Below, in pieces: positions 1-14,297 of a stretch of DNA of 15,077 nucleotides. This DNA comes from Oscillospiraceae bacterium (lineage in GTDB: Bacteria; Bacillota_A; Clostridia; Oscillospirales; Oscillospiraceae), in the NCBI GenBank assembly GCA_017408725.1, contig JAFQUA010000072.1, forward strand, positions 1 to 15,077, written 5' to 3'. The notes under the pieces were generated by a model. The model had not been told where the DNA came from. It made no database searches and worked only from the letters and a program-made list of their open reading frames with translations. A program made the translations under genes and the position numbers. Positions within the stretch are counted from its first letter, which is position 1; every line of letters begins with the position of its first letter.

Positions 1-1061
1 AAGAGCATTCCAAGACCGTTGAGAACGTCATTTTCAGTAGCGAGGATATAGGGCTCGCGAGCACCGTTGTGGTCGAATGTGGAGTTGAGAAGAGCCTCGG
101 GGAAGTCGCAGTTGGGATAGAAGTCGGTCCACTGACGCTGACCCTGGAAGCCGCCGGCGATGGCGTTGTGACCAACCATCTCTTCCTCGCAACCTGCGGG
201 CAGGTTGGGGTTGCCGTTGAACATGTCCTTGATGATGCAGTACATCTTAGCCAGGAAGTCCCACTGCTCAGCCTTCTTCTCGTCGGAAGTCTTAACGAAG
301 TCGGGGTTCTTGTCCCAGCCTTCCTTGCAGTTTTCAGCGATCCAAGCCTTAGCTCTTGCAACTTCTTCTGCGTCATAGACGCCTTCGGATATTCGACGGA
401 TGATCTCGACCTCGTCGACAGACTCAACGCGCATGCCCAGGTAAGACTCGATGAAAGCGGGATCGATGATGGAACCGCCGATACCCATGCAGATGGAGCC
501 GATCTGCAGGTAGGACTTGCCGCGCATGGTAGCAACAGCGACAGCAGCGCGAGCAAAGCGCAGCAACTTCTCCTGCACGTCAGCAGGGATGTTGGTCACT
601 TCGTCCAGATTCTGAACATCGTGGCCGTAGATGCCGAATGCGGGCAGACCCTTCTGGGCATGGCTTGCCAGAACGGAAGCCAGGTAAACCGCGCCGGGAC
701 GCTCGGTGCCGTTGAAGCCCCATACGCCCTTGATGGTCTGGGGATCCATGTCCATGGTCTCGGAGCCGTAGCACCAGCAGGGAGTAACGGTCAGAGTGAT
801 GTCAACGCCGTTTCTCTTAAACTTTTCAGCGCAGGCAGCAGCCTCGGCAACACGGCCGATGGTAGTGTCAGCAATGACGACCTTGACGGGCTCGCCGTTG
901 GAATACTGGATATTTTCCTCAAACAGCTTCTTGGCAGCCTGTGCCATAGCCATGGTCTGGTCTTCCAGAGACTCACGAACCTTCAGCGGGCCGCGGCGAC
1001 CGTCGATGGTGGGGCGGATACCGATAACCGGATACTCGCCGATGTATCTGTTCTTTGCCAT
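1..1061 (-). CDS. fucI: L-fucose isomerase, N-terminal 353 residues (cut by window edge)
   Basis: Ketol isomerase that interconverts L-fucose and L-fuculose; the family also accepts D-arabinose/D-ribulose. It is a cytoplasmic Mn2+ enzyme. The frame runs open off the left edge. Translation shows [12 protein letters not shown] near residue 13, the family signature [17 protein letters not shown] around residues 90-106, [16 protein letters not shown] and [10 protein letters not shown], collinear with E. coli FucI. Glu343 in the ATEN motif matches the first metal ligand (Glu337 in E. coli); the later Asp and His ligands lie outside the window. I chose ATG 1061 because AGGAGG (1075-1070) sits 8 bases upstream; an in-frame ATG at 1067 is too close to it. 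It lies 88 bases downstream of the LacI-family gene on the same strand, so it may be cotranscribed or use its own leader promoter. FucI identity is very secure; the physiological substrate (fucose or arabinose) is not fixed by sequence. Confidence 0.96.
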
Positions 1062-1083
1062 AATCATTCCTCCTGATTTCTTT

Positions 1084-1149: not shown

Positions 1150-2130
1150 TTATTTCGGCTCGATATTGCACTTGAGCCGGGTGATCCTGGGATCTCCGGT
1201 ATAACCCGAAAGACGCTCGATCAAATACCCCGCAGCCAAATGACCGATCTCTGATTCCGGTTGGTACACCACCGGCAGCGGCGGTTTCATCATGGTGCAT
1301 ACATTCACGCAGTCAAAGCCGAAGATATCAATATCATCCGGAATCCGCAAGCCCTGATCGCGAACCGCTGTAAACAAGCCGATGGTAATATCATAGTTGG
1401 TCGTTACAATGGCCGTGGGACGATCCTCTAACTGCAGCAGTGCTTCACAACCTCTGTAGCCCGTTCCAAACACATTCTGGTCACTGATCACCAGCAAGTC
1501 ATCGTAAAGGATCCCATGATCCGACAACGCCCGTAGATAGCCAACCTGCCGTTCTTTTGCGGTAAACACAGATTTGGGTCCGGAAATAATGCCGATCCGC
1601 CGGTGCCCTTTGGCAATCAGTGCCGATACCGCACTGTAAACCGCGTCAGCATTGTCCACCAGCACCGCATCACTGGTCACACCCTGGATCATTCTGTCAA
1701 TCTGTACCATGGGGATGCTGTGATTGGCCGTCAACTCGTAAAACTCCTCGGCAGAAAGATCTTCGGATGCATAGATCAATCCGTCAATTCCGTTGGAGAT
1801 CAGAAATTGCAGGTTGTCCCGCTCCAGACCGTGGTTTGCACCGTAGCAGGATACCAAAGTATGATATCCATGCTCCCGGAATATCTTGTCCATAGAGGTA
1901 ATCACATTGCCGTAAAACGGAGCTGTCATATCCGGAATGAGGATGCCGATGGAGCGGCTTCGCTGGGATTTTAAGTTTCGCGCAAAAGGATTGACCCGAT
2001 AATCCAATTCTTCGACGGCTGCGCGAATCGCTTCAGCATTGTCCTGGTGCACTTTCCCACCGTTTAAGTATTTGGAAACCGTGGACATCGCCACTCCCGC
2101 CCTGCGGGCCACATCTTTAATGGTCGCCAT
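1150..2130 (-). CDS. LacI-family transcriptional regulator
   Basis: DNA-binding regulator of 326 residues. Residues 2-25 (ATIKDVARRAGVAMSTVSKYLNG) are a typical LacI helix-turn-helix, followed by a hinge region (NPFARNLKSQRS, about 47-58) and a periplasmic-binding-protein-like effector domain beginning SIGILIPDMTAPFYGNV. Length is normal for the family. A purine-rich Shine-Dalgarno (GGGAGAG) precedes ATG 2130. The gene is divergent from the ABC importer operon, and two near-identical palindromes with the central CG typical of LacI-family operators lie in the shared intergenic region, one only 23 bases upstream of this start. I infer a local repressor, autoregulated and induced by a sugar or sugar phosphate. 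The effector cannot be read from the sequence; fuculose, ribulose or a phosphate ester is possible given the neighbours. The family assignment is certain, the regulon inferred. Confidence 0.93.
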   Translation of the reverse strand: MATIKDVARRAGVAMSTVSKYLNGGKVHQDNAEAIRAAVEELDYRVNPFARNLKSQRSRSIGILIPDMTAPFYGNVITSMDKIFREHGYHTLVSCYGANHGLERDNLQFLISNGIDGLIYASEDLSAEEFYELTANHSIPMVQIDRMIQGVTSDAVLVDNADAVYSAVSALIAKGHRRIGIISGPKSVFTAKERQVGYLRALSDHGILYDDLLVISDQNVFGTGYRGCEALLQLEDRPTAIVTTNYDITIGLFTAVRDQGLRIPDDIDIFGFDCVNVCTMMKPPLPVVYQPESEIGHLAAGYLIERLSGYTGDPRITRLKCNIEPK

Positions 2131-2551: not shown

Positions 2552-4045
2552 ATGGGTGAAACAATTCTGAAGATGCAAGGCATCCAGAAATATTTCTCCG
2601 GTGTGCATGCACTGAAGGGTGTCGACTTCGAACTGAAAGCCGGCGAGGTTCATGCACTGATGGGCGAAAATGGTGCTGGTAAATCCACTTTGATCAAAGT
2701 TCTTTGCGGCATCCACAAAAGAGACGGCGGTACCGTAGAGTACTTTGGTAAGGAAGCCAACTTCCATAACATTGCCGAATCTCAGGCTGCCGGCATCAGT
2801 GTTGTCCATCAGGAGCTGAACATGATGAACCACTTGACGGTGGCTCAGAACATCTTCATCGGCCGGGAGCCCAAGAAGGGCATTATGATCGACGACAAAA
2901 AGATGATTGCCGAAGCTAAGGCTTTGTTTGATAAAATCAGTGTGAAGATCGACCCCACTGTTAAACTGGGCGAGCTGACCGTAGGCAAGCAGCAGATGGT
3001 AGAGATCGCCAAAGCCATCTCCCGGGACTGCAAACTCCTGGTGCTGGACGAACCCACCGCCGCACTGACCCAGCCGGAGGTGGAAGAGCTGTTTAAAATC
3101 ATGCGTGAGCTGCAGGAAAAGGGTATTGGTATGATCTACATCTCTCACCGTATGGATGAGATCAACCGCATTTCCGACAGAGTTACCGTTATGCGAGACG
3201 GTGAATACGTGGGTACTGTGAATACCGCTGACGTCACCAAGGACGACATCGTGAAGATGATGGTTGGCCGCGTGATTATGGGAGACAAGAAGGAAGCCTC
3301 CACTGTTCCTGCCGATGCCCCTGTGGTATTGGAAGTCAAACACCTGAATGCTGGCAAGGAAGTGAAGGATGTAAGCTTCCAGCTTCACAGAGGCGAGATC
3401 CTGGGCTTTGCAGGTCTGATGGGTGCCGGCCGTACAGAAGTAGCCCGCGCGCTTTATGGTGCTGACCCCAAGCAGACCGGTGAGATTTATATAAACGGCA
3501 AGAAAGTTAACATTAAGACTCCTGAGCAGGCTGTCAAGTACGGCATCTGTTATCTGTCCGAGGACCGTAAGCGCTACGGACTGATGCTGGCCAAGTCTGT
3601 AGCTGAAAACTCCGCCATTGCCTCCGTTGATAAATTTGTCCACAAAGGCTGGATCAACGATAAGGAAATTGCCAAGGTCTCCGCAGAGACCAACTCCCTG
3701 CTGCGCACCAAGACTCCTTCCATGGAGCAGCTGCTGAAGAACCTCTCCGGCGGTAACCAGCAGAAGGTCATTATCGCCCGTTGGCTGATTAAAGACTGTG
3801 ATATCTTTATTTTTGACGAGCCTACCCGCGGCATCGATGTCGGTGCAAAGAGTGAAATGTACACTCTAATGGAGGATCTGGCCTCCAAGGGCAAGTCTGT
3901 TATCATGATCTCTTCCGAACTGGCAGAGATCCAGCGTTTGAGTGACCGCGTCATCGTTATGTGTGAGGGCCGGATCACCGGCGAGTTGGACATCGCCGAC
4001 GCCACCCAGGAAGAAATTATGAAATACGCCACCATGCGTGAGTGA
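2552..4045 (+). CDS. CUT2-family sugar ABC importer, duplicated ATP-binding subunit
   Basis: Energises uptake of a monosaccharide with the permease and binding protein that follow. 497 residues, the usual length of RbsA/MglA/XylG-type proteins with two fused nucleotide-binding domains. First domain: Walker A GENGAGKST (38-46), a modified signature LTVGKQQ (142-148) and Walker B LLVLDEPT (D166, E167). Second domain: degenerate Walker A GLMGAGRTE (288-296, no lysine, as is normal for this family), signature LSGGNQQ (398-404) and IFDEPTRGID (D422, E423). Start: ATG 2552 sits 8 bases after GGTGA within AGGAAAGGTGA; in-frame GTG 2540 and TTG 2546 overlap or crowd that site. First gene of the operon, with 24 bases to the permease. 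Substrate is not readable from the ATPase; neighbouring FucI and FGGY kinases suggest a pentose or 6-deoxyhexose. Confidence 0.95.
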   Translation: MGETILKMQGIQKYFSGVHALKGVDFELKAGEVHALMGENGAGKSTLIKVLCGIHKRDGGTVEYFGKEANFHNIAESQAAGISVVHQELNMMNHLTVAQNIFIGREPKKGIMIDDKKMIAEAKALFDKISVKIDPTVKLGELTVGKQQMVEIAKAISRDCKLLVLDEPTAALTQPEVEELFKIMRELQEKGIGMIYISHRMDEINRISDRVTVMRDGEYVGTVNTADVTKDDIVKMMVGRVIMGDKKEASTVPADAPVVLEVKHLNAGKEVKDVSFQLHRGEILGFAGLMGAGRTEVARALYGADPKQTGEIYINGKKVNIKTPEQAVKYGICYLSEDRKRYGLMLAKSVAENSAIASVDKFVHKGWINDKEIAKVSAETNSLLRTKTPSMEQLLKNLSGGNQQKVIIARWLIKDCDIFIFDEPTRGIDVGAKSEMYTLMEDLASKGKSVIMISSELAEIQRLSDRVIVMCEGRITGELDIADATQEEIMKYATMRE

Positions 4046-4069
4046 TCGTAAGGAAAGGGATTGAATACA

Positions 4070-5113
4070 ATGAAACTTAATGACAAAAAGCCTTTTAAAC
4101 TTCAGCAGAATATCATCATGCTCTTTGCTACGGTGGTTCTGCTGGGTCTGTTCAGCTTGGTAAACCCCAACCTGATCAGAGATAAGTATATGATTCTGAG
4201 TATGGTCCAGCAGTTCGCGCCCTATGCGGTTATGGGTCTGGGCGTCACCTTCGTTATCGCCACCGGCGGTATCGATCTGTCTCTGGGTACTGTGTGTATC
4301 GCTTCCGCCGTTTTGGCCGGTAAGCTGTACACCATGGGCATCATTCCCCTGTGGGCAACCATCCCTGTGATGATGATCATCGGTACTCTGTGCGGCCTGC
4401 TGAACGGCCTGATGGTGGCAAAGCTGAAGATTCCTGCATTTATCGCAACTCTGGGTACTATGATGGTATCCCGCGGCCTGTCTGCATTGCTTGCCGAAGT
4501 TCCTAACATCTTCTTCCCCACCGGCACCTGGTACAACAAAATCTTCTCCAGCCTCACCATTGGCGATGTAAGTGCCATTCCTATGGGTCTGTTCTGGGTC
4601 ATCGGTTTGATGCTGATTTGTATGTACCTGATGTACAAGAACAAGATCGGCCGTTATATTCTTGCCATCGGCTCCAATGAAGAAGCTACCCGCCTGTCCG
4701 GTATTAACACCGACAACTACAAGATCTTTGCTTACACCTTCGCCGGTCTGTTCTGCGGTATTGCCGCAATCTTCTACTCCGCAGCCTTCCCCACCATCGC
4801 CTGCGCTACCGGTAACGGCATGGAACTGGATGCCATCGCCGGTGTCTACATTGGCGGTACTTCTTCCGCCGGCGGCGTTGCTTCTGTTTCCGGCTCCGTC
4901 ATCGGCGCGATCCTGCTGGTTGTCATCCGCAGCGGTCTGAATATGGTGCTGGCAAAGCTGGGCATCAGCCTGAACTCTACCTATGTCACCTATGTGCTGA
5001 CCGGTATCATTGTTGTAGTCGCCATTCTGATGGACATCATCAAGACCAACAACCAGAATAAGGTAAAGATCGAAAAGGTTGAAGAAACCAAGAAAGAAGC
5101 TCCCAAGGCTTAA
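4070..5113 (+). CDS. CUT2-family sugar ABC importer, permease
   Basis: Membrane-spanning channel subunit of the importer, 347 residues, RbsC/XylH/AraH type (BPD_transp_2). It has many hydrophobic segments, beginning with NIIMLFATVVLLGLFSLV near residues 14-31, and the family motif VTFVIATGGIDLSLGT around residues 60-75, then a GLLNGLMVAKLKIPAFIATLGTM-like loop (the coupling region with the ATPase) and ELDAIAGVYIGGTSSAGG near residue 260. The last 25 or so residues are highly charged (Lys/Glu-rich) and probably cytoplasmic. Start: ATG 4070 is 10 bases after AGGAAAGGG (4051-4059); an in-frame TTG at 4061 directly abuts that site. Probably forms a homodimer with the fused ATPase. Subunit assignment is secure; the sugar is unknown. 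Confidence 0.95.
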   Translation: MKLNDKKPFKLQQNIIMLFATVVLLGLFSLVNPNLIRDKYMILSMVQQFAPYAVMGLGVTFVIATGGIDLSLGTVCIASAVLAGKLYTMGIIPLWATIPVMMIIGTLCGLLNGLMVAKLKIPAFIATLGTMMVSRGLSALLAEVPNIFFPTGTWYNKIFSSLTIGDVSAIPMGLFWVIGLMLICMYLMYKNKIGRYILAIGSNEEATRLSGINTDNYKIFAYTFAGLFCGIAAIFYSAAFPTIACATGNGMELDAIAGVYIGGTSSAGGVASVSGSVIGAILLVVIRSGLNMVLAKLGISLNSTYVTYVLTGIIVVVAILMDIIKTNNQNKVKIEKVEETKKEAPKA

Positions 5114-5191: not shown

Positions 5192-6247
5192 ATGAAAAAA
5201 CTCATCGCATTGGTACTGGTCATGGTCTTGGCTCTGAGCCTGGTGGCCTGTGCTCAGCCCGCTGAGGAGAAGACCATCGCTGTGATCGCTAAGGGCGAGT
5301 CCCACGCTTTCTGGCAGGCTGTTAAGGCCGGTGCTGAGAAGGCTGCCAAAGAGAAGGGCTACAAGCTGACCTTCCAGGGCCCTGCTAACGAGAACCCCGA
5401 ATCCGTACCCAGCCAGATCACCATGGTTCAGACCGCTCTGTCCAACAATGTTAGCGGCATCGTTCTGGCTACCATCGGCTCCGGCTTCGGCGAACTGCTG
5501 ACCCAGGCTTACGACAAGAACATCCCCGTTGTTACCTTTGACTCCGGTCTGAAGGCTCCCGAGGACATCACCGCTGGCAAGAACCCCATTGTTGCTCACG
5601 TTGCTACCGACAACAAGGCTGCTGCTAATATCAACGGCGAGAAGCTGTTCGAGGCTATCAAGGCTGACATCGCTGCTTGCACCGCTGACAGCAAGTACGT
5701 AATCGGTGTTATCCAGCACGACGAGACCGCTACCGGCTATGACCGCGCTGACGGCTTCATTGAGAAGTTCAAGGCTCTGGCTGACGCTGACGAGACCACC
5801 AAGGGCAAGTACGAGATCGTTAAGGAAGTAAAGCCCGGCGATGCTAACCAGGCTTATGTTGCTGCTCTGGAAGCTCTGTACGAAAAGAACATCAGCGCTC
5901 TGTTCATGACCAACGAAGGTGTTGTTAAGCAGGTTTACGACGCAACCAAGGCTGCTGAAGGCAAGTACGACGACATCGTATTCTCCGGCTTTGACGCTGG
6001 CACCAAGCAGCTGACTTGGATGAAGGAGAACGGTACTCCCAAGCTGGTTGGCTCCGTTGCTCAGGACTCCATCGAGATGGGTTATCAGGCTGTTCTGCAG
6101 TGCATCGCTGCTATCGAGGGCGGCAAGGCTGAGAACAAGGACATCGTTGGTACCTGGTATGACTTCTCCAACATGAATGAAATGGTTGAGAAGGACCTGG
6201 CCTACACCGATAGCGACGCTGACAAGGCTGCTATCCTGGGCAAGTAA
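5192..6247 (+). CDS. Sugar-binding lipoprotein of the CUT2 ABC importer
   Basis: Extracytoplasmic receptor, 351 residues, periplasmic-binding-protein type 1 fold (Peripla_BP_4). N-terminus MKKLIALVLVMVLALSLVAC is a lipoprotein signal: positive start, hydrophobic core and lipobox LVAC with Cys20 as the lipidated residue, so it should be anchored on the outer face of a Gram-positive membrane. The mature domain starts KTIAVIAKGESHAFWQAVKAG, as in ribose, xylose and galactose binding proteins. Strong AGGAGGAAACAATC ribosome site before ATG 5192. Codon use is strikingly uniform (GCT, GTT, GGC, AAG, ATC), typical of a highly expressed gene, and an intercistronic hairpin precedes it. It is the third gene of the importer operon and is followed by a strong terminator, so the importer is a discrete unit. 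Ligand unknown; L-fucose or D-arabinose is the inference from context. Confidence 0.95.
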   Translation: MKKLIALVLVMVLALSLVACAQPAEEKTIAVIAKGESHAFWQAVKAGAEKAAKEKGYKLTFQGPANENPESVPSQITMVQTALSNNVSGIVLATIGSGFGELLTQAYDKNIPVVTFDSGLKAPEDITAGKNPIVAHVATDNKAAANINGEKLFEAIKADIAACTADSKYVIGVIQHDETATGYDRADGFIEKFKALADADETTKGKYEIVKEVKPGDANQAYVAALEALYEKNISALFMTNEGVVKQVYDATKAAEGKYDDIVFSGFDAGTKQLTWMKENGTPKLVGSVAQDSIEMGYQAVLQCIAAIEGGKAENKDIVGTWYDFSNMNEMVEKDLAYTDSDADKAAILGK

Positions 6248-6281
6248 TCCCTAACAAATCGCATATCAGCGGCTTGAACCG

Positions 6282-6312
6282 ACCGGCACCACTTCGGTGG
6301 TGCCGGTTTTCT
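6282..6312 (+). terminator. Intrinsic terminator with UUCG loop
   Basis: An 11-bp perfect stem, ACCGGCACCAC (6282-6292) with GTGGTGCCGGT (6297-6307), closes on a C(UUCG)G tetraloop and is followed by TTTTCT. It ends the importer operon 35 bases after the binding-protein stop codon. Confidence 0.93.
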
Positions 6313-6331
6313 CAAGAAGCACACTTACCAA

Positions 6332-6386
6332 CTCACAGCTGAATCCTGCAAATATTTTTATGATATTTTCAGCATTGAACTGTGAG
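6332..6386 (+). other. Two-tier stem in kinase leader
   Basis: CTCACA (6332-6337) pairs with TGTGAG (6381-6386) and the adjoining GCTGAA (6338-6343) with TTCAGC (6368-6373), leaving a 7-base bulge and a 24-base AT-rich loop. The AGGAGG of the next gene follows at once, so the structure could influence translation. No good promoter is visible between the terminator and the kinase. Confidence 0.35.
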
Positions 6387-6401: not shown

Positions 6402-7877
6402 ATGAAAAAAGCAAGAAATCTGCTGGCATTCGACTTAGGCGCCAGCAACGGCCGTGCCATTCTCGGCCGTTTTGACGGTGAAAAGATCACCATGACTGAG
6501 CTTCACCGGTTTGAAAACAACTACATTGAAATGAACGGTATCTACTACTGGGATACCCCCTACCTTTACAATCAGTTGAAGCAGGGTCTGCTGAAATTCG
6601 TCCAGGGCGACTACGGCGAACTGGATTCCTTCGGCATCGACACCTGGGGTGTGGACTTCGGCCTTCTGGATAAGAACGGCCAGCTCGCCGGTGTGCCCCG
6701 TTCCTACCGTCTGGGTACTCAGGAAGATATCGACGCAGTTAAAGCTGTGATCCCCGCTCAAACCCTTTACGAGCGCTCCGGTATCGACACCACACTGACC
6801 TTCAATACCCTCTATCAGCTCTACCGCCGCAAGCGGGAAAATGACCCCGCTCTGGAAATTGCGGATACCATGCTGCTGACTCCTGACCTGCTGGGCTATT
6901 TCCTCACCGGTGCCAAGGGTACGGAATATACCATCGCCACCACCACCCAGCTCTATAATCCCACCACCCAGGACTGGGATTGGGAGACAATCGACACTCT
7001 GGGTCTGCCCCGCCACATCTTCACCAAGATTGACAAGACCGGTACCATCCGCGGCCAGCTGCGTCCAGAGGTCTGCGAAGAGATCGGCATTAATCCCGCC
7101 GCTTTCGTAGCCGTTGGCAGCCACGACACCGCTTCCGCTGTTGCCGCTATTCCCGGCAAGGGCAGCTTTGCCTTCTGTTCCAGCGGCACATGGAGCCTCT
7201 TTGGCGCAGAAATGGACAAGCCCGATCTTTCCCCTGAGGCCGCAGCCGCCGGTTTCTCTAATGAAGGTACCATTCAGGGCGGTTTCCGTCCCCTGAACAC
7301 CATCATCGGCATGTGGATCATTCAGGAATGCCGCCGCGATTGGCTGAAAAACGGCATCGACATCAGCTGGGACGGTGTTGTGCAGGAAGCCCGCAAGGCC
7401 GAGCCCCTGCGCTCCATTATTAATCCCGACTCCCCCGAATTCTACGCTGGCGGCAATATGGAAAAGAAGATTCAGGACTTCTGCCGCAAGACCGGTCAGC
7501 CCGTTCCCGAAACCATCGGTCAGGTGGCCCGCTGTGTCTATGAGTCTCTGGCACTGAAATACCGCCACGCACTGGAAAGCCTGCAGAAGATGAAGGGTCA
7601 GCGAATTGATTCGCTGAATATTGTGGGCGGCCCCATCAACAACCGGTTTCTGGATCAGCTCATCGCCGATTCTTTGGACCGCGAAGTGGTCACCGGCCCC
7701 GTGGAAGGCGCTGCCATCGGCAATCTGCTGACCCAAGCCATGGCTCTGGGCGACATCAAAGATCTTGACGAGCTGCGTCAGGTCGTCCGTAATTCCGAAG
7801 CCGTTGAGGTTTGGAAGCCCCACCACACCGCCGAATGGGAAAACGCATATCAAAAGTTACTTACTTTCTTAAAATAA
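6402..7877 (+). CDS. Rhamnulokinase-type FGGY carbohydrate kinase
   Basis: ATP-dependent ketose kinase of 491 residues; RhaB-like proteins make L-rhamnulose-1-phosphate. Visible features: FDLGASNGRAI (10-20, first phosphate loop), GIDTWGVDFGLLD (78-90, substrate region), VGSHDTASAVAA (238-249) with Asp242 as probable catalytic base, FCSSGTWSLFGAE (258-270) and a C-terminal VGGPINNRFLDQL (408-420). The last motif usually reads GGG..N in this family; here the third Gly is Pro. Start: ATG 6402 follows AGGAGGTTGTATA; the frame extends further upstream but runs through the terminator. Because the locus carries fucI and no rhamnose isomerase, the real substrate may be L-fuculose or D-ribulose, so I leave the symbol empty. 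First gene of the metabolic operon; the SDR follows 13 bases later, with the ribosome site overlapping this stop codon. Family certain, substrate uncertain. Confidence 0.88.
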   Translation: MKKARNLLAFDLGASNGRAILGRFDGEKITMTELHRFENNYIEMNGIYYWDTPYLYNQLKQGLLKFVQGDYGELDSFGIDTWGVDFGLLDKNGQLAGVPRSYRLGTQEDIDAVKAVIPAQTLYERSGIDTTLTFNTLYQLYRRKRENDPALEIADTMLLTPDLLGYFLTGAKGTEYTIATTTQLYNPTTQDWDWETIDTLGLPRHIFTKIDKTGTIRGQLRPEVCEEIGINPAAFVAVGSHDTASAVAAIPGKGSFAFCSSGTWSLFGAEMDKPDLSPEAAAAGFSNEGTIQGGFRPLNTIIGMWIIQECRRDWLKNGIDISWDGVVQEARKAEPLRSIINPDSPEFYAGGNMEKKIQDFCRKTGQPVPETIGQVARCVYESLALKYRHALESLQKMKGQRIDSLNIVGGPINNRFLDQLIADSLDREVVTGPVEGAAIGNLLTQAMALGDIKDLDELRQVVRNSEAVEVWKPHHTAEWENAYQKLLTFLK

Positions 7878-7890
7878 GGAGATGTTTATC

Positions 7891-8769
7891 ATGAGCGTAG
7901 ATATGACCAAATGGATGCAGATCGCCAAAGAAAACATTCACAACCGCCCCGCAGGTACCGGCCGTCTGGCAGGCAAGATCACCATCGTTACCGGTGCTGC
8001 TCAGGGCTTCGGCAAGGGCATTGCTGAGGAGCTGTACGCAGAGGGTGCCACCATCATCATCGCTGACATGAACCAGCCTCTGGCGGAATCCGTCGCTGCC
8101 GAGATGGGCGATCGGGCTTATGCCATCGCTGTCAATGTTTCTGACGAAGAGAGCGTTGCCAATCTGGTAGCACAAACCGTAGAAAAGTTCGGCGGTCTGG
8201 ATATCATGGTCGCCAACGCCGGTGTTGTCCGCTCCGGCCCCATTGCCGACTTCGAGAAGAAGGATTTCGAGTTCGTTACCGCTATCAACTACACCGGTCT
8301 GTTCCTCACCGCCAAGTATTCCGCCATGATCATGCAGGCACAGCACGAGGCTGACCCAGAGGCTTCCTTCGACATCATCGCCATGTCCTCCAAGTCCGGT
8401 CTGGAAGGCTCCAACAAGAACTTTGCCTACGCAGGCTCCAAGTTCGGTGCCATCGGTCTGGTTCAGAGCTGGGCACTGGAGCTGTGCGCCTACAACATCA
8501 AGGTCAACGCCATCTGCCCCGGCAACTACCTGGATGGTCCCCTGTGGTCCGACCCCGTCCGCGGTCTGTTCGTTCAGTACCTGCAGGCCGGCAAGGTTCC
8601 CGGTGCCAAGACCGTTGAGGATGTCCGCCGCTTCTACGAGGCTAAGGTTCCCATGAACCGTGGCTGCCTGCCCATCGATGTTGCCCGGGCTGTTATGTAC
8701 TGCGTGGAGCAGAAGTATGAGACCGGTCAGGCTATCCCCGTCACCGGCGGTCAGGTCATGCTGAACTAA
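7891..8769 (+). CDS. SDR dehydrogenase resembling sorbitol-6-phosphate 2-dehydrogenase
   Basis: NAD(P)-dependent short-chain dehydrogenase of 292 residues. TGAAQGFGKGI (34-44) is the cofactor glycine motif, Asp59 at the end of the second strand points to NAD(H), NAG lies at 109-111, and the catalytic tetrad is visible as Asn133, Ser167, Tyr180 and Lys184 (YAGSK). The C-terminal part, KVPMNRGC...VTGGQVMLN, resembles SrlD/SorD (D-glucitol-6-phosphate 2-dehydrogenases). The N-terminal 28 residues ahead of the Rossmann fold are an extension over minimal SDRs. Start: ATG 7891 is 9 bases after TAAGGAG; ATG 7882 overlaps that site. Together with the SorE-like gene downstream it could re-oxidise a polyol phosphate to a ketose phosphate. 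A role as lactaldehyde or other dehydrogenase cannot be excluded. Confidence 0.85.
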   Translation: MSVDMTKWMQIAKENIHNRPAGTGRLAGKITIVTGAAQGFGKGIAEELYAEGATIIIADMNQPLAESVAAEMGDRAYAIAVNVSDEESVANLVAQTVEKFGGLDIMVANAGVVRSGPIADFEKKDFEFVTAINYTGLFLTAKYSAMIMQAQHEADPEASFDIIAMSSKSGLEGSNKNFAYAGSKFGAIGLVQSWALELCAYNIKVNAICPGNYLDGPLWSDPVRGLFVQYLQAGKVPGAKTVEDVRRFYEAKVPMNRGCLPIDVARAVMYCVEQKYETGQAIPVTGGQVMLN

Positions 8770-8781
8770 TCAGGTGCTGCC

Positions 8782-9933
8782 ATGATCGATATTGCCATTT
8801 TGAACAAGCTGAATGCCCCTACCCGGGAAGAACGCCTTGCAAACCTTAAAGAGGTTTTGAAGGATACCGTATTCCCGCCCATGGTGCCTCAGTACATCAA
8901 TAACCACATTCACACTACCTACTCTTTCTCTCCCTACTCCCCCACCGCAGCGGTTTACGCCGCCCGTATGGAGGGTCTGTGCACTGCCGGCATCATCGAC
9001 CATGATTCCATTTCAGGTGCGCAGGAGTTTATTGAAGCCGCCAAGCTGGTGGATATTCCCGTTACCATCGGTATGGAAGCCCGTGTCAGCATGGACGGAA
9101 CCCGTCTGGAAGGCCGCCGCACCAACAATCCCGATCAGGTGGGCGTTTCCTACATGACCATACAGTCCGTTCCCCACGACAAGATCGCTGTCCTGACCGA
9201 GTTCTTCAAGCCTTATCAGGCTGCCCGTCACGAACGCAACCGGAAAATGATCGCCAAGATCAATGACTTGGTGGGTGTTTCTCTGGATTATGACCGGGAT
9301 GTACTCCCCCTCTCCGAAGCTGCTGACAACGGCGGCGTTACCGAGCGGCATTTGATGTACGCTCTGGCCATTGAACTGGTCAAGCAGGTTGGCAAGGGTC
9401 AAAGCATGATCGACAAGCTGACTTCTGTGGGCATGACCCTTTCCGAAAAGCAGAAGACCATGCTTCTGGACACCGAATACCCGTTCTACGAGTACGATGT
9501 GCTGGGTATGCTGAAGGGTACCTTCGTTCCCAAGATCTTCATTGATGCCACAGATGAATGCCCCAAGCTGAAGGATATGGTCAAGCTTTGCAGCGATGTG
9601 GATGCTTACCTTTGCTATGCATACCTCGGCGATGTGGGTGACAGCGTCACCGGCGACAAGAAGGCCCAGAAGTTTGAGGACGATTACCTCGACGATGTAT
9701 TTGAGTGCCTGAAGGAAGAAGGCGTCAAAGCCGTCACCTATATGCCCACCCGAAACACCCCGGCACAGCTTACCCGCCTCAGAAAACTTTGCGACGATTA
9801 CGGTATGTTCCAGATCTCCGGTGAGGATATCAATTCTCCCCGGCAGAGCTTTGTCATCAAGGCCATGGAGAATCCCTTGTTCCAGAACCTAATCGACGCC
9901 ACCTGGAAGCTCATTGAGCATGAAAGTAAATAA
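8782..9933 (+). CDS. PHP-domain protein, putative metal-dependent phosphoesterase of unknown role
   Basis: 383 residues. The PHP metal site is recognisable: INNHIHTTYSFSPYSP (H42, H44), IIDHDSISG (D73, H74) and IGMEA (E99). The expected C-terminal Asp-x-His is replaced by GEDINSPRQSF (D349, I350, N351), and a long segment of about 240 residues separates E99 from it, so this is a divergent PHP subgroup. No signal peptide or membrane segment; cytoplasmic. Starts 12 bases after the SDR stop with only a weak AGGTG site, suggesting translational coupling. PHP proteins hydrolyse phosphoesters (histidinol-phosphate phosphatase, nucleases, 3',5'-bisphosphate phosphatases). Placed between two polyol-phosphate-type dehydrogenases, it may act on a sugar or polyol phosphate, but that is inference. 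Domain call is firm; function unknown. Confidence 0.85.
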   Translation: MIDIAILNKLNAPTREERLANLKEVLKDTVFPPMVPQYINNHIHTTYSFSPYSPTAAVYAARMEGLCTAGIIDHDSISGAQEFIEAAKLVDIPVTIGMEARVSMDGTRLEGRRTNNPDQVGVSYMTIQSVPHDKIAVLTEFFKPYQAARHERNRKMIAKINDLVGVSLDYDRDVLPLSEAADNGGVTERHLMYALAIELVKQVGKGQSMIDKLTSVGMTLSEKQKTMLLDTEYPFYEYDVLGMLKGTFVPKIFIDATDECPKLKDMVKLCSDVDAYLCYAYLGDVGDSVTGDKKAQKFEDDYLDDVFECLKEEGVKAVTYMPTRNTPAQLTRLRKLCDDYGMFQISGEDINSPRQSFVIKAMENPLFQNLIDATWKLIEHESK

Positions 9934-9956
9934 CTTCGAAATAGGAGGATAATTAT

Positions 9957-11216
9957 ATGAACACCAAAGCAGTACGTATTCACGGCAAAATGGATCTGCG
10001 TCTGGATGACGTGACCCTGCCCGAAGTTGGCCCCGACGATGTCCGCATCCGCGTAGTTTCCGACAGTCTCTGCATGTCCAGTTACAAAGCCGCTATCGAA
10101 GGCGGCGAGCACAAGCGCGTTCCCGACCGCTGCGACCTGACTCCTACCATTGTGGGTCACGAATTCTGCGGTGACATCGTAGAAGTCGGCGAAAACTGGA
10201 AGCACAAGTACAATGTAGGTGATAAGTTCGTCATTCAGCCCGCTCACTTCCACAAGGGCAGCCAGATGGCTCCCGGCTATTCCTACCAGTTCTGTGGCGG
10301 CGATGCCCAGTACGGCAATGTGCCCATCGAGACTCTGCTGGAAAACTGCCTGCTGCCCTACAATTCCGACACTTACTACTATGGCTCTCTGGCTGAGCCT
10401 CTGAGCTGCGTCATTGGCACTTTCCATGCCATGTACCATACCAAGGCCGGTTCTTATGTCCATGAAATGGGCATTAAGGAAGGCGGCAAAATGGCTCTGC
10501 TGGCTTCCGTCGGCCCTATGGGTCTGGCTGCCATTGACTACGCCATCCACTGCGACCGCCGTCCCAGCCTGCTGGTCGTCACCGATATCGACGAAGCAAG
10601 ACTGGAGCGCGCTGCTTCCATCTACACCGTGGAAGAAGCTGCCAAGTACGGCATTGAGCTGCACTATGTCAACACCCGCATGGAGAATGCCACCGAGTAC
10701 CTCCGGGAGCTGACCGGCGGCACCGGCTACGACGATGTGGTCTGCTTCGCCCCTGTTAAGCCCGTTATCGAACAGGCTGATGACATTCTGGGCTTCGACG
10801 GCTGCCTGAATTTCTTCGCAGGTCCCACCGACTCCAAGTTCAAGGCTCCCTTCAACTGGTACAATGTCCACTACCTGTACACTCACGTGGTTGGCACCTC
10901 CGGCGGCAACACCAACGATATGCAGGAAGCCATCGAGATGATGAATGAAGGCCGACTGAATCCTTCCGCTCTGGTCACTCACATCGGCGGTCTGAACGCC
11001 GTTATCGACACCACTCTGAACCTGCCCAAGATCCCCGGCGGTAAGAAGCTGATCTATACTCAGATTGACCTGCCTCTGGCTGCAATCTCCGACTTTGAGG
11101 AGCTGGGCAAGACCGATCCTCTGTTCGCTGAGCTGGACAGACTCTGCAAGGCAAACAACGGCCTGTGGAACCCCGAAGCAGAAAAGTATCTGCTGGCCAA
11201 CGCCAAGGCTATCTAA
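9957..11216 (+). CDS. Zinc alcohol dehydrogenase resembling L-sorbose-1-phosphate reductase
   Basis: Medium-chain dehydrogenase/reductase of 419 residues. Catalytic zinc ligands are visible as Cys39 (SDSLCMSSYK) and His68-Glu69 in GHEFCGDIVEVG, and Glu147 in LAEPLSCVIG corresponds to the Glu found in polyol dehydrogenases. The four-cysteine structural zinc lobe of classical alcohol dehydrogenases is absent. The Rossmann motif is ASVGPMG (183-189), with Asp210 (VVTDID) favouring NAD(H). The overall look and length fit SorE, which reduces L-sorbose-1-phosphate to D-glucitol-6-phosphate. Strong ATAGGAGGATAATTAT ribosome site, 23 bases after the PHP gene; last gene before a terminator. With the SorD-like SDR in the same operon, it suggests reduction of a ketose-1-phosphate made by a neighbouring kinase. 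The exact substrate is unproven; other polyol (phosphate) dehydrogenase roles are possible. Confidence 0.85.
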   Translation: MNTKAVRIHGKMDLRLDDVTLPEVGPDDVRIRVVSDSLCMSSYKAAIEGGEHKRVPDRCDLTPTIVGHEFCGDIVEVGENWKHKYNVGDKFVIQPAHFHKGSQMAPGYSYQFCGGDAQYGNVPIETLLENCLLPYNSDTYYYGSLAEPLSCVIGTFHAMYHTKAGSYVHEMGIKEGGKMALLASVGPMGLAAIDYAIHCDRRPSLLVVTDIDEARLERAASIYTVEEAAKYGIELHYVNTRMENATEYLRELTGGTGYDDVVCFAPVKPVIEQADDILGFDGCLNFFAGPTDSKFKAPFNWYNVHYLYTHVVGTSGGNTNDMQEAIEMMNEGRLNPSALVTHIGGLNAVIDTTLNLPKIPGGKKLIYTQIDLPLAAISDFEELGKTDPLFAELDRLCKANNGLWNPEAEKYLLANAKAI

Positions 11217-11220
11217 ATTC

Positions 11221-11246
11221 AAAAGCCTCCCGCAAGGGAGGCTTTT
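11221..11246 (+). terminator. Intrinsic terminator or attenuator with GCAA loop
   Basis: A perfect 11-bp stem AAAAGCCTCCC / GGGAGGCTTTT with a GNRA (GCAA) tetraloop begins 5 bases after the dehydrogenase stop codon. The T-run is only four bases before CC, and the next gene's AAAGGAG starts 4 bases later, so partial read-through into the second kinase is likely. Confidence 0.88.
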
Positions 11247-11263: not shown

Positions 11264-12835
11264 ATGGATCTTCAAAAAGCCGTATTGGGCATTGAACTGG
11301 GCTCTACCCGAATCAAAGCTGTTTTGATCGATGAAAACCATCTTCCCATTGCCACCGGAAGCTATTCCTGGAAAAACGATCTGGTGGATGGTGTCTGGAC
11401 ATACCCTCTGGAAAAGGCGGTGGCCGGTGTCCGCACCTGCTACAGTGAACTGCACAAGGATGTGCAGACCAAGTTCGGTCAGACCTTGACCCGTGTTGCC
11501 GCCATTGGCATTTCCGGCATGATGCACGGATACCTTGTCTTTGACAGAGATGGTAACCAGCTTGCCCCCTTCCGCACCTGGCGCAATACCATCACCGGTC
11601 CTGCCGCTGCGGAGCTGATGGAGCTGTTCCAATTCAACATTCCCCAGCGTTGGAGCATCGCCCATCTGTACCAGGCAATCTTGAATAAAGAATCCCATGT
11701 AAAGAATATTGCCCGGCTAACTACCCTCAGCGGCTATATCCACAGCCTGTTGACTGGAGAAAATGTCATGGGCGTGGGTGAAGTTTCCGGCATGTTCCCC
11801 TACGATGATGAAACCGGCGATTTTGACGCAGTCCGTATAGAGCAGTTCGACGCGCTGGTAGCCCCCTACGGCTTCTCCTGGAAGCTGCGGGACATTCTTC
11901 CCACCGTCAAGCGTGCCGGCGAGCCCGCAGGCTTCCTTACAAAAGCCGGTGCCGCCCTGCTGGACGAAACCGGTGCACTGGAAGCCGGTATCCCCTTCTG
12001 TCCCCCCGAAGGCGACGCAGGCACCGGCATGGTGGCTACGGGCGCCGTTCTGCCCCGTACCGGCAGCATTTCCGCAGGCACCTCTGCTTTCTCTTTGCAG
12101 GTTCTGGAACGTCCGCTGATGAAATATTATCCGGAGATCGACGTTGTGGCCACTCCCTCCGGAAAAACTGTTGCCATGGCCCACACCAACACCTGCACTT
12201 CCGAGATTGACGCATGGGTGAATCTGATTGCCGATGCGATGCGTACCATGGGCTGGAATGTGGATATGAATGAGCTGTACCCCACCTTGTTCCGCAAGGC
12301 ACTGGAGGGTGACACCGACTGCAGCGGCATCATTGCTTTCAATTATTTCGCAGGCGAACCTCTGACCGCCACAGAAACCGGACGTCCCATGCTGGTACGT
12401 CTGCCGGACAGCAAGATGACCATCGCCAATTTCATGCGCTCCCAGCTGTACGGTGCCATCGCAACACTGAAGATCGGCATGGATATGCTGGCTAGGGAGG
12501 AACAGGTGGAATCAGACAAGCTGCTGGGTCACGGCGGCTTCTTCAAGACCCCCGGTGTGGGTCAGCAGATCATGGCAGACGCGCTGAATGTGCCCATTAC
12601 AACCATGGAAACCGCCGGCGAGGGCGGTCCCTGGGGTATGGCGCTGCTGGCAGCTTATATGCTGCGTAAAGCAGAGGGCGAAACCATGGAGAATTATCTG
12701 GCAAACCGTGTGTTCAGCACTGCCAAGAGCAGCCGCCTGCAGCCCGATCCTGCCGGTGTCGCAGGATTCCAAGCGTATCTTGACCGCTATATGGCCTGCC
12801 TGCCGGTACAGAACGCCGCAGCTGCACTAAAATGA
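11264..12835 (+). CDS. FGGY-family carbohydrate kinase, second type
   Basis: Probable cytoplasmic sugar kinase, 523 residues, clearly different from the rhamnulokinase-type protein upstream. N-terminal LGIELGSTRIKAVLID (8-23) is the first phosphate loop, with Glu11 where most FGGY kinases have Asp; ISGMMHGYLVF lies near 83-93; EGDAGTGMVATG (249-260) contains Asp251 as the probable catalytic base; GSISAGTSAFSLQV (267-280) is the second phosphate region; LLGHGGFFKTPGVGQQI (420-436) is the C-terminal adenosine region. Closest by eye to xylulokinase/ribulokinase-like FGGY proteins. AAAGGAG lies 7 bases before ATG 11264. It starts 17 bases after a terminator with no room for a promoter between, so expression depends on read-through or a promoter inside the upstream gene. 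Substrate not assignable; D-xylulose, D- or L-ribulose or a pentitol are candidates. It ends at its own terminator. Confidence 0.87.
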   Translation: MDLQKAVLGIELGSTRIKAVLIDENHLPIATGSYSWKNDLVDGVWTYPLEKAVAGVRTCYSELHKDVQTKFGQTLTRVAAIGISGMMHGYLVFDRDGNQLAPFRTWRNTITGPAAAELMELFQFNIPQRWSIAHLYQAILNKESHVKNIARLTTLSGYIHSLLTGENVMGVGEVSGMFPYDDETGDFDAVRIEQFDALVAPYGFSWKLRDILPTVKRAGEPAGFLTKAGAALLDETGALEAGIPFCPPEGDAGTGMVATGAVLPRTGSISAGTSAFSLQVLERPLMKYYPEIDVVATPSGKTVAMAHTNTCTSEIDAWVNLIADAMRTMGWNVDMNELYPTLFRKALEGDTDCSGIIAFNYFAGEPLTATETGRPMLVRLPDSKMTIANFMRSQLYGAIATLKIGMDMLAREEQVESDKLLGHGGFFKTPGVGQQIMADALNVPITTMETAGEGGPWGMALLAAYMLRKAEGETMENYLANRVFSTAKSSRLQPDPAGVAGFQAYLDRYMACLPVQNAAAALK

Positions 12836-12927: not shown

Positions 12928-14247
12928 TTATGATTGCAGCAGTTCGTCCAGAATTCCCAGATCCCAGGCAAGTCTGGACAGTACATATTTATCCCGAATA
13001 TCCTTGGTGGCCCGGAAGATCACATCCAACATTTCGTCTGCCGTTCCGATCTCGCCCAAAGTTTTTGGCATTTCCATTCTATCAAGCAGCCCTTCCAGCT
13101 GTGCAAATGCCGGTAGCTCCTCATCCATGATCTTTAAAAGCGCATCCCAGTTCTGCAGAATGAGCTCCAGCCGTTTTTTGTGGGCTTCCGGATCATACTT
13201 CCCCTCTTTGGCCTCCAGTGCGATCATGCTTTCCGCGCCCTTGCCCAAAAGATGCCGAAGCTCTGCGCTCCAACGATCATAATCAAACTTCCGAACGGAT
13301 ACCAATGCTTTTTCCCGATCCGGCATGACCGCTTTCAGCTTCTCATACAGTCCCACCGCAATTCGTGTGCCTACCGCACACTGGATGCCATGAAGCTCCA
13401 CGGTTGTACCAAATTCCGCCCCTCGCATGTCCAGTACATGGGATATGTAATGCTCCACACCGGAAGCAGGCCGGGAAAGGCCGGCATAATTCATGGCAAC
13501 GCCGCCGATGACTAAGCCTTCAAATACCGCTTGCACCGCGGCTTCCTCCCGCCGGAGCAAGCCTTCCGCATTGTCCACACACCGCTCCACTGCGCCGCGG
13601 ATCAAATCGGCAATTTCCTCGCAGTAATACTCCCCGGCAATGATCTTGGCGATTCGCCACTCGCAGATGCTGACATATTTCGCAAGCATATCCCCAAGTC
13701 CCGCTTTCATCATCTTCAGCGGCGCATTCCGTAAAATATCCGTATCGCCGATGATCACATCCGCCCCACGGCTGGGCAGGGATATCTTCAAACTGTCCCG
13801 AGTCATGGAAGAGGTGGCAGAAGCATATCCATCCATAGAAGGCGCTGTTCCTACGATGATGTAGGGCTTTTGGGACACCGCGCTTAGAATTTTGCCAATG
13901 TCATTGATCACGCCGGAACCTACCGCGATGACAAGATCGCAGCTTGCGTCGTAATGCATCACCGCAGAGCCTACACTTCTTTCGTCCGGTTCCAGAGCTT
14001 TCTCCGGAAAGCTGTAGGTTACATAGGAAATGCCGCTGTCTGCCAAAATACCGCAAACCCGCTCTCCAGCCGCAGCAAATGTATTTTTATCTGACAAAAC
14101 GAACACTTTTTTCCCGCCGAATTCCGCTACGAATTCCGGGATCTTCTTGATCACGCCGCTGCCCGTAACGATCTTTGCGTCAAAGCTGTGGATCTTTCCG
14201 CAACTACAGAGCCTGCCGTTCATGGCATTCAGCTGTTCCATACTCAT
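12928..14247 (-). CDS. AraM-type sn-glycerol-1-phosphate dehydrogenase family protein
   Basis: Metal-dependent NAD(P) dehydrogenase of 439 residues in the Fe-ADH_2 group. Known relatives reduce dihydroxyacetone phosphate to sn-glycerol-1-phosphate (Bacillus AraM, archaeal G1PDH). Visible: AVGSGVINDIGK (108-119, nucleotide binding), GTAPSMDGYAS (133-143), GLGDMLAKY (183-191) with metal ligand Asp186, GVEHYISH (263-270) with His266, and VELHGIQ with His286. The N-terminus carries a CSCGKIH motif (Cys14, Cys16, His20) of a type I recall from clostridial relatives. I chose ATG 14247, 10 bases after AGGAG (14262-14258); in-frame ATGs at 14277 and 14241 are alternatives. Convergent with the sugar operon, so not part of it. 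AraM relatives often sit in arabinose loci, so it may act on a sugar-derived phosphate here. Family firm, stereochemistry and role inferred. Confidence 0.88.
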   Translation of the reverse strand: MSMEQLNAMNGRLCSCGKIHSFDAKIVTGSGVIKKIPEFVAEFGGKKVFVLSDKNTFAAAGERVCGILADSGISYVTYSFPEKALEPDERSVGSAVMHYDASCDLVIAVGSGVINDIGKILSAVSQKPYIIVGTAPSMDGYASATSSMTRDSLKISLPSRGADVIIGDTDILRNAPLKMMKAGLGDMLAKYVSICEWRIAKIIAGEYYCEEIADLIRGAVERCVDNAEGLLRREEAAVQAVFEGLVIGGVAMNYAGLSRPASGVEHYISHVLDMRGAEFGTTVELHGIQCAVGTRIAVGLYEKLKAVMPDREKALVSVRKFDYDRWSAELRHLLGKGAESMIALEAKEGKYDPEAHKKRLELILQNWDALLKIMDEELPAFAQLEGLLDRMEMPKTLGEIGTADEMLDVIFRATKDIRDKYVLSRLAWDLGILDELLQS

Positions 14248-14268
14248 ATTCCTCACACTCCTAAGGGA

Positions 14269-14297
14269 ATTATACAACGCATCTTTCCACGGCGCAA
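14269..14297 (-). promoter_or_regulatory. Promoter of the AraM-type gene
   Basis: On the minus strand TTGCGC (14297-14292), a 17-base spacer and TATAAT (14274-14269) predict a start near 14262. The leader would be only about 15 bases, with the AGGAG almost at the 5' end. Confidence 0.6.

Follow-up and report, generated by a model that had tools for sequence, protein, structure and literature searches.

The window analysed here, a 15,077-nt stretch of an Oscillospiraceae bacterium (assembly GCA_017408725.1, contig JAFQUA010000072.1), is predicted to be an L-fucose (6-deoxyhexose) catabolic locus of an uncultured gut bacterium. It combines fucI with genes for two FGGY kinases (K1 and K2), a short-chain dehydrogenase/reductase (SDR), a PHP-fold metalloprotein and a zinc-dependent medium-chain dehydrogenase/reductase (MDR) of the SorE/YggP family. 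In relatives, PHP and MDR genes are linked to a lipoyl-dependent E1-E2-E3 complex with an alpha/beta-fused E1, and this link is new. As the best explanation of the locus, we tentatively favor a shift of the phosphate group by two redox steps, followed by acyloin-type cleavage of the product. It is possible, although we hold this with some doubt, that gut Clostridia degrade L-fucose and L-rhamnose by such a redox phosphate shift and a dedicated lipoyl E1-E2-E3 complex, with neither an aldolase nor lactaldehyde.

The known phosphorylated breakdown of L-fucose and L-rhamnose proceeds through an aldolase and lactaldehyde, and then to lactate or 1,2-propanediol. In the L-sorbose pathway, C2 of a ketose 1-phosphate is reduced and the far end is reoxidized, and we propose the same logic for the window. 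FucI and K1 would make L-fuculose 1-phosphate, and the MDR would reduce its C2, like SorE on L-sorbose 1-phosphate, to give a 6-deoxyhexitol 1-phosphate. The SDR, or in some genomes perhaps an MtlD-like enzyme, would then oxidize C5 next to the methyl group to form a 1-deoxyketose 6-phosphate. This product, CH3-CO-CHOH-R with the phosphate at C6, would be a methyl acyloin of the type used by acetoin dehydrogenase, and the E1-E2-E3 complex would cleave it to acetyl-CoA and a tetrose 4-phosphate. With the stereochemistry of SorE, L-fuculose 1-phosphate would become 1-deoxy-D-tagatose 6-phosphate and the tetrose would be D-threose 4-phosphate. The MDR, SDR and E1-E2-E3 steps would bypass FucA, which, where present, would be a parallel branch. 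L-Rhamnulose 1-phosphate would enter likewise, the RhaE domain acting either as a parallel aldolase or as a C4 epimerase, and the PHP protein would serve at some step of the same pathway.

Linkage of PHP and MDR genes to a lipoyl-dependent complex

We compared two sets of PHP loci (loci and genomes are designated by L and G numbers, respectively). The first comprised 53 loci from one genome_contigs scan with the PHP protein, whose titles name Oscillospiraceae, Lachnospiraceae, Clostridia or Firmicutes; almost all come from metagenome-assembled genomes (MAGs), many of animal-gut origin, and the one named isolate is Flintibacter muris. The second, wider set comprised 40 loci from 50 PHP genomes (E <= 1e-20; 87 before this cut) among 245 genomes of the order. 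The SDR gene adjoins that of PHP in 47 of the 53 loci and the MDR gene in 24, so that their pairing with PHP is more than chance; in the second set, SDR adjoins PHP in 26 of 40. The first set contains a K1-type kinase in 31 loci, FucI in 18 and RhaA in 3.

MDR genes of relatives stand beside those for E2, E3 and E1 of a lipoyl-dependent dehydrogenase complex, with E1 alpha and beta fused in a chain of about 825 amino acids. The operons take the forms E2-E3-E1-MDR-[RhaE.SDR]-PHP-kinase-RhaA (L125, L133, L134, L135 and L136), RhaE-E2-E3-E1-MDR-SDR-PHP-kinase (L138 and L139), MDR-[RhaE.SDR]-E2-E3-E1 (L231-L234) and MDR-E2-E3-E1 (L186, L204 and L205, as well as L190, L192 and L197, where E3 was uncalled). 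At the FucI locus L178, genes for LplA (lipoate ligase) and LipA (lipoyl synthase) directly precede SDR-PHP-MDR. Upstream of MDR-E2-E1 or MDR-E2-E3-E1, two loci (L192:6225-7028 and L204:8999-9988) have a small gene whose product, by eye, resembles the amidohydrolase-2 family at its start.

The same genes also co-occur across genomes. Among the 245 genomes of the order, PHP was found in 50, E1 in 69 and MDR in 79 (all 79 were used, and a recount without the 16 genomes at <= 54% identity gave the same picture). E1 was present in 48 of the 50 PHP genomes (14.1 expected) versus 21 of the 195 others; PHP and MDR coincided in 45 genomes (16.1 expected) and E1 and MDR in 55 (22.2 expected). All 16 further PHP-locus genomes, chosen by hand, carried E1. 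An E1 gene was called on the PHP-bearing stretch itself in 11 loci of the second set (of 40) and in none of the first (of 53). A sample of 200 genomes from the family of G008 (F. muris) contained FucI in 18, MDR in 18, SDR in 13, fused E1 in 17 and RhaA in 23. For E1, 29 of these genomes gave matches; the 17 at >= 57% identity were kept (G295 with a 67% fragment) and 12 of E1-beta type at 35-40% were dropped. The fused E1 coincided with MDR in 13 genomes (1.5 expected) and was present in 12 of the 18 FucI genomes and 12 of the 13 SDR genomes, each overlap having an expectation of 1.1 to 1.6. FucI coincided with MDR in 13 genomes (1.6 expected) and with SDR in 11 (1.2 expected), which bears out the pairing of a SorE-like with a SrlD-like (glucitol-6-phosphate-dehydrogenase-like) protein, suggested earlier from the sequence only, and places it in deoxyhexose catabolism; the overlaps of RhaA were weak (5 or 6 versus 1.5 to 2.1 expected). 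The p-values, down to about 1e-31, are inflated by shared descent, a reservation that does not apply to the recurrent regrouping of these genes in new operons.

Relatives of the fused E1 occur on plasmids. Sixteen of the best 40 plasmid matches listed for the E1 beta half share 54-58% identity and are mostly named fused chains; those listed next, at 35-39%, mostly bear the names of alpha-ketoacid or pyruvate dehydrogenase subunits. The best match, at 58%, is annotated acoB, and the ones after it, at 54-55%, are mostly named fused E1; an acoB annotation is carried by one of the three plasmid relatives examined. The neighborhoods of those three (from Pleomorphomonas, Rhizobium and Agrobacterium) jointly contain sugar ABC (ATP-binding cassette) transporters, sugar kinases, XylB, FucU/RbsD, a mannitol dehydrogenase family protein and LipA, a context that would fit the cleavage of sugar-derived acyloins without proving it. 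The Rhizobium, Pleomorphomonas and Agrobacterium plasmid loci (L215, L216 and L217) also encode, with the fused E1, a separate small lipoyl protein and an alpha/beta hydrolase (acoC in L216). Sugar-acyloin cleavage may possibly occur outside Clostridia too.

Dehydrogenases of the proposed phosphate shift

The MDR aligns along almost its whole length with Klebsiella SorE (46.4% identity, 418 columns) and E. coli YggP (54.3%); among solved structures, it matches best a butanediol dehydrogenase, which is distant (E 2.4e-12). A pattern scan of viral contigs confirmed no MDR relative. Another MDR subfamily (50-53%) is paired with a gene for a fructose/tagatose-bisphosphate-type aldolase (L007:12370-14486 and L208). 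The L228 cluster contains a different MDR (32% identical to YggP), a FucK-like kinase (25%), E2-E3-E1, LplA and a weakly sulfoquinovose-isomerase-like protein; it would perhaps perform the same chemistry on another sugar.

The best family of the SDR is sorbitol-6-phosphate dehydrogenase (PRK12384), at 218.3 bits and so under the cut-off of 307 bits. The protein is 36% identical to E. coli SrlD, 29% to Klebsiella SorD and 27-30% to two canonical RhaW domains, and a tree tentatively places it with SrlD, apart from SorD and the two RhaW domains (support 94/82), on a topology in which the SrlD branch is very long (3.72). We thus rejected the identification of the SDR as a plain SorD, SrlD being nearer. 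The sequence-only reading had placed an FGGY kinase, a SorE-like reductase and a glucitol-6-phosphate-dehydrogenase-like protein beside fucI, and open reading frames, Pfam and NCBIfam agree with it; of its analogy to a SorE-SorD pair, the SorE half stands and the SorD half gives way to SrlD. The window SDR, of about 292 amino acids, has no fused class II aldolase domain, whereas relatives have fused forms, and it is 63-66% identical to the SDR halves of the fusions compared. It is a stand-alone cousin of these halves.

An MtlD-like gene belongs to the MDR-E2-E3-E1 clusters of L235-L238 and L241; by eye, a DeoR-like gene precedes the cluster, and four of the five include LplA. In L243 and L199 the MtlD-like gene lies some genes away from MDR. 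Five of these seven MtlD-like genes were scanned and, along most of their length, scored 272-318 bits with models of mannitol-1-phosphate 5-dehydrogenase, under the cut-offs; the three scanned from the in-cluster cases scored 304-318 bits. MtlD oxidizes C5 of hexitol 1-phosphate. Since C5 oxidation is the step that the phosphate-shift route needs, the MtlD-like gene supports this route.

Aldolase genes and the ordinary aldolase route

Class II aldolases (PF00596) were searched in 20 genomes of the loci and 19 more, and part of the matches were compared with E. coli FucA, RhaD and AraD. FucA-like genes lie between fucU and fucI in G002 (L012) and G004 (L019) and one gene from fucI in G430 (L211), with the catalytic residues intact in all three. 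The left edge of the window cuts fucI itself, and in other relatives, such as L047, no FucA-like gene next to fucI was found. As the FucI of L019 is 96.3% identical (353 residues) to that of the window, fucA may well lie just past the left edge. In five genomes with fucI and SDR-PHP (G006, G007, G008, G010 and G273), the PF00596 members found are AraD-like only, at 58-64% identity to E. coli AraD, and in three more (G020, G280 and G364) no PF00596 member was found. G370, with fucI and MDR and no SDR match, likewise has an AraD-like member only. Other FucI genomes with SDR, e.g., G271, G295, G385, G011, G013 and G016, have further PF00596 members, compared in part, some of them RhaE-like or two-domain. 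Class II aldolase proteins of about 430-470 amino acids with two PF00596 domains in one chain were seen in L086, L174 and L175; that of L086 scores best against 3-oxo-tetronate-4-phosphate decarboxylase.

Aldolase domains are also joined to the SDR itself. The SDR forms the C-terminal half of a class II aldolase fusion in half of the second set (20 of 40 loci) and in 2 of the 53 loci of the first, i.e., 22 of 93, and is uncalled in 16 of the 93. Three scanned fusions match TIGR02632 (RhaD aldolase-ADH) from end to end at 250-277 bits, far under its cut-off of 567.75, and the two fused aldolase halves that were checked, together with the separate one of L058, retain the FucA glutamate (the base) and three zinc histidines. 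RhaE, fused or separate, is present in all 15 RhaA loci and none of the 19 FucI loci of both sets. Either RhaE is a rhamnulose-1-phosphate aldolase and fucose uses another aldolase, or RhaE feeds a shared route, e.g., as a C4 epimerase, a role considered because the two ketose phosphates are C4 epimers and the family includes AraD.

These genes speak for a rival in which FucA-like or RhaE enzymes cleave L-fuculose 1-phosphate or L-rhamnulose 1-phosphate to dihydroxyacetone phosphate (DHAP) and L-lactaldehyde; the SDR, as in RhaEW, oxidizes lactaldehyde to L-lactate; E1-E2-E3 is a downstream pyruvate dehydrogenase; and the MDR is a lactaldehyde or diol dehydrogenase. The fusions, their intact zinc ligands and base, the FucA-like genes beside or near fucI and the report of both activities for RhaEW (excerpts of PMC3870299) are all in its favor, but the fusions score low against TIGR02632, their SDR half is nearer to SrlD than to canonical RhaW, eight genomes with FucI and SDR-PHP yielded no PF00596 aldolase other than AraD-like ones, and the SorE-type MDR, the MtlD-like enzyme and PHP are left without a clear role. 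We regard this rival as rather unlikely.

Several points count against the phosphate shift with acyloin cleavage. The FucA-like genes of L012, L019 and L211 and the presence of RhaE in all 15 RhaA loci are among them, and RhaE read together with a RhaW-type SDR would give the ordinary aldolase route. An aldolase of another superfamily could serve, since the search covered PF00596. The E1-E2-E3 complex was seen in relatives only, the genome of the window lying outside the samples, and the best solved matches of E1 are 2-oxo acid dehydrogenases. At the cut-offs applied, G370 and G430 matched FucI, MDR and E1 but neither SDR nor PHP. We rejected the idea that MtlD strictly replaces the SDR, as three of the seven genomes with the MtlD-like gene (G047, G068 and G154) contain SDR and PHP too. 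The tetrose would be D-threose 4-phosphate or L-erythrose 4-phosphate, not D-erythrose 4-phosphate, so an isomerase or a further step is needed. Most genomes are draft MAGs whose completeness was not stated, and the co-occurrence values are inflated by relatedness among the genomes.

The sequence-only reading had proposed that FucA is bypassed and had named a fucA beside fucI, past the left edge, as evidence to the contrary. A FucA-like gene lies next to fucI in relatives L012 and L019 and near it in L211, while the eight genomes are in keeping with a bypass. The branch of that reading leading to a 1-deoxyketose 6-phosphate has gained from the links to the lipoyl complex and the MtlD-like gene, and is weakened by the FucA-like genes and the RhaE-SDR fusions.

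Kinases and the pentose alternative

K1 matches the rhamnulokinase model (430.5 bits, cut-off 527.95) better than that of E. coli-type FucK (141 bits), and it is 39% identical to E. coli RhaB and 25% to FucK. It matches the solved structures PDB 2cgj and 4c23, the latter an S. pneumoniae-type FucK, and is expected, from these likenesses, to make ketose 1-phosphates. K2 is 55-59% identical to kinases in araA-araD clusters (L092, L094, L096 and L098-L100). Because K2-type kinases stand beside araA/araD, where the ribulokinase AraB would be expected, we place K2 in a ribulokinase-like family, to which NCBIfam assigns the name XylB with a weak score only.

D-Arabinose is also a substrate of FucI, and a pentose phosphate shift can be envisaged in which FucI converts D-arabinose to D-ribulose, K1 forms D-ribulose 1-phosphate, the MDR D-arabinitol 1-phosphate and the SDR D-xylulose 5-phosphate, while K2 may phosphorylate ribulose at C5. 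The ribulokinase-like type of K2 and the agreement of the stereochemistry with that of SorE are in its favor, but the same SDR, PHP and MDR also occur with RhaA, and a sugar that lacks a methyl end offers no explanation for the link to the lipoyl complex. We found no evidence that singles out this branch, which the sequence-only reading had also offered, and we consider it improbable.

PHP protein

The PHP fold is present in the encoded protein, and the nearest folds are phosphoesterases. Its metal site departs from what we take to be the phosphoesterase pattern, in which the PHP motifs, and a C-terminal D-x-H motif, supply the metal ligands: Phe replaces the Asp aligned with 3e0f, and Asn occupies the C-terminal D-x-H position, in 41 of 41 rows. 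The three-metal ligand set of this pattern is thus incomplete. No C-C hydrolase was near the protein among the best 50 matches listed by VIA-align and Foldseek; an unlisted match would prove nothing. The plasmid collection gave no PHP match. A role as a mere substitute for the aldolase was rejected, since PHP also stands beside RhaE in rhamnose loci. In seven loci (L119, L122, L123, L126, L129, L130 and L132; families checked on representatives), a PHP family member without SDR follows genes for V-type ATPase subunits and a lipoate ligase, and the genomes of these loci also carry the fused E1.

An oxidative hydrolytic cleavage, in which the SDR oxidizes C4 of the ketose 1-phosphate to a 2,4-diketone, PHP hydrolyzes this to DHAP and L-lactate and the MDR acts in a separate step, is very improbable: SDR and PHP are the tightest pair at these loci and the metal site is altered, but the SDR is uncalled in part of the loci, the nearest folds of PHP are phosphoesterases and the E1 link stays unexplained.

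Comparison with known systems

Like the window, the Klebsiella L-sorbose operon (SorE and SorD) combines a SorE-family MDR with an SDR of the polyol-phosphate-dehydrogenase type. The window differs in having an isomerase, a kinase and an ABC transporter, in its SrlD-like SDR and in the extra PHP protein, to which the lipoyl complex is added in relatives; no sorbose-type phosphotransferase system (PTS) was found among the ten window proteins scanned. YggP, the closest named MDR, is encoded beside a mannitol-type PTS in the E. coli cmtBA-yggP-glpX(yggF) cluster, which, unlike the window, has no FucI, SDR or PHP among the genes annotated there. To our knowledge, the function of this cluster has not been established. 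Like E. coli FucIKA, the window has FucI and an FGGY kinase, and relatives have FucU; by contrast, K1 is rhamnulokinase-like and FucA was not found in some relatives. No FucO was detected among the ten proteins, except that the glycerol-1-phosphate dehydrogenase-like one gave a weak match (27 bits).

RhaEW, an aldolase joined to a lactaldehyde dehydrogenase according to excerpts of PMC3870299, shares with the clostridial fusions its domain order and its occurrence in rhamnose operons with RhaA and a rhamnulokinase. The two are only about 25% identical overall, the SDR half of the fusions groups with SrlD, and the window SDR stands alone. Acetoin dehydrogenase systems (Pelobacter and aco operons) likewise have acyloin-making dehydrogenases beside E1-E2-E3 and lipoate enzymes; excerpts of PMC3543383 describe butanediol dehydrogenases paired with acetoin dehydrogenase and lipoate genes in Pelobacter carbinolicus. 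By comparison, the clostridial E1 alpha and beta are fused, a sugar kinase and an isomerase are in the operon, and the predicted substrate is a sugar phosphate. A class II aldolase forms the end of the 5-deoxyribose route (excerpts of PMC6079011). Of the open-access papers listed for the locus, for YggP, for the PHP protein and for the acyloin idea, none deals with this locus, as judged by title and abstract beginning, nor did the excerpts of PMC3870299, PMC3543383 and PMC6079011 describe such a locus.

Layout of the window

K1, SDR, PHP and MDR are co-directional behind the ABC transporter genes, with the lacI-type regulator gene and fucI on the opposite strand (Table 1). Both N-terminal FucI domains were found by Pfam, the C-terminal part lying beyond the left edge, and the protein is 57.7% identical to E. 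coli FucI. Family scans (Pfam and NCBIfam) covered ten window proteins. The ABC ATPase is conserved in FucI loci, as is the position of the permease. By eye, the repeat that follows the binding-protein gene has a GC-rich core stem and a TTCG loop and is followed by TTTTC; that upstream of K1 is a possible operator or leader. Together with the hairpin between MDR and K2, these repeats suggest a separate control of the catabolic genes. At its gathering thresholds, Rfam matched nothing in the window. Near the locus, at 12928-14277, is a gene resembling glycerol-1-phosphate dehydrogenase; in relatives it adjoins SDR-less PHP-MDR pairs (L017, L020 and L025) and is near fucU in L087.

Table 1. Features of the 15,077-nt window
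Feature	Position	Strand	Basis
FucI, L-fucose/D-arabinose isomerase, N-terminal 355 amino acids, cut by window edge	3..1067	-	Pfam PF07881/PF07882; NCBIfam PRK10991, 567 bits
LacI-family regulator	1150..2130	-	Pfam PF00356/PF00532
Sugar ABC transporter ATPase, RbsA/MglA type	2552..4045	+	Open reading frame; family by eye; start codon chosen
ABC transporter permease	4061..5113	+	Open reading frame; family by eye
ABC transporter sugar-binding protein	5192..6247	+	Pfam PF13407
Terminator-like inverted repeat 3' of binding-protein gene	6273..6316	+	20-nt arms, 80% complementary
Imperfect inverted repeat upstream of K1, 24-nt arms	6332..6386	+	
K1, FGGY ketose kinase, rhamnulokinase family	6402..7877	+	TIGR02627, 430.5 bits; Pfam FGGY
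SDR dehydrogenase, SrlD-like	7891..8769	+	PRK12384, 218.3 bits
PHP-fold metalloprotein with altered metal-site residues	8782..9933	+	
MDR zinc dehydrogenase, SorE/YggP family	9957..11216	+	SorE/YggP identity; Pfam PF00107/PF08240
Perfect 11-nt hairpin between MDR and K2	11221..11246	+	
K2, second FGGY kinase	11264..12835	+	TIGR01312, 105 bits

Biological implications

L-Fucose and L-rhamnose are major gut sugars. If the phosphate shift and acyloin cleavage proposed here are true, a widespread set of gut bacteria would convert the methyl end of both sugars directly to acetyl-CoA, and the expected products would be acetate or butyrate instead of propanediol or propionate. Several gene families named by likeness only would be given roles. 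The route would form a separate branch of deoxysugar metabolism, and its lipoyl complex would be a sugar-phosphate member of the acetoin dehydrogenase class.

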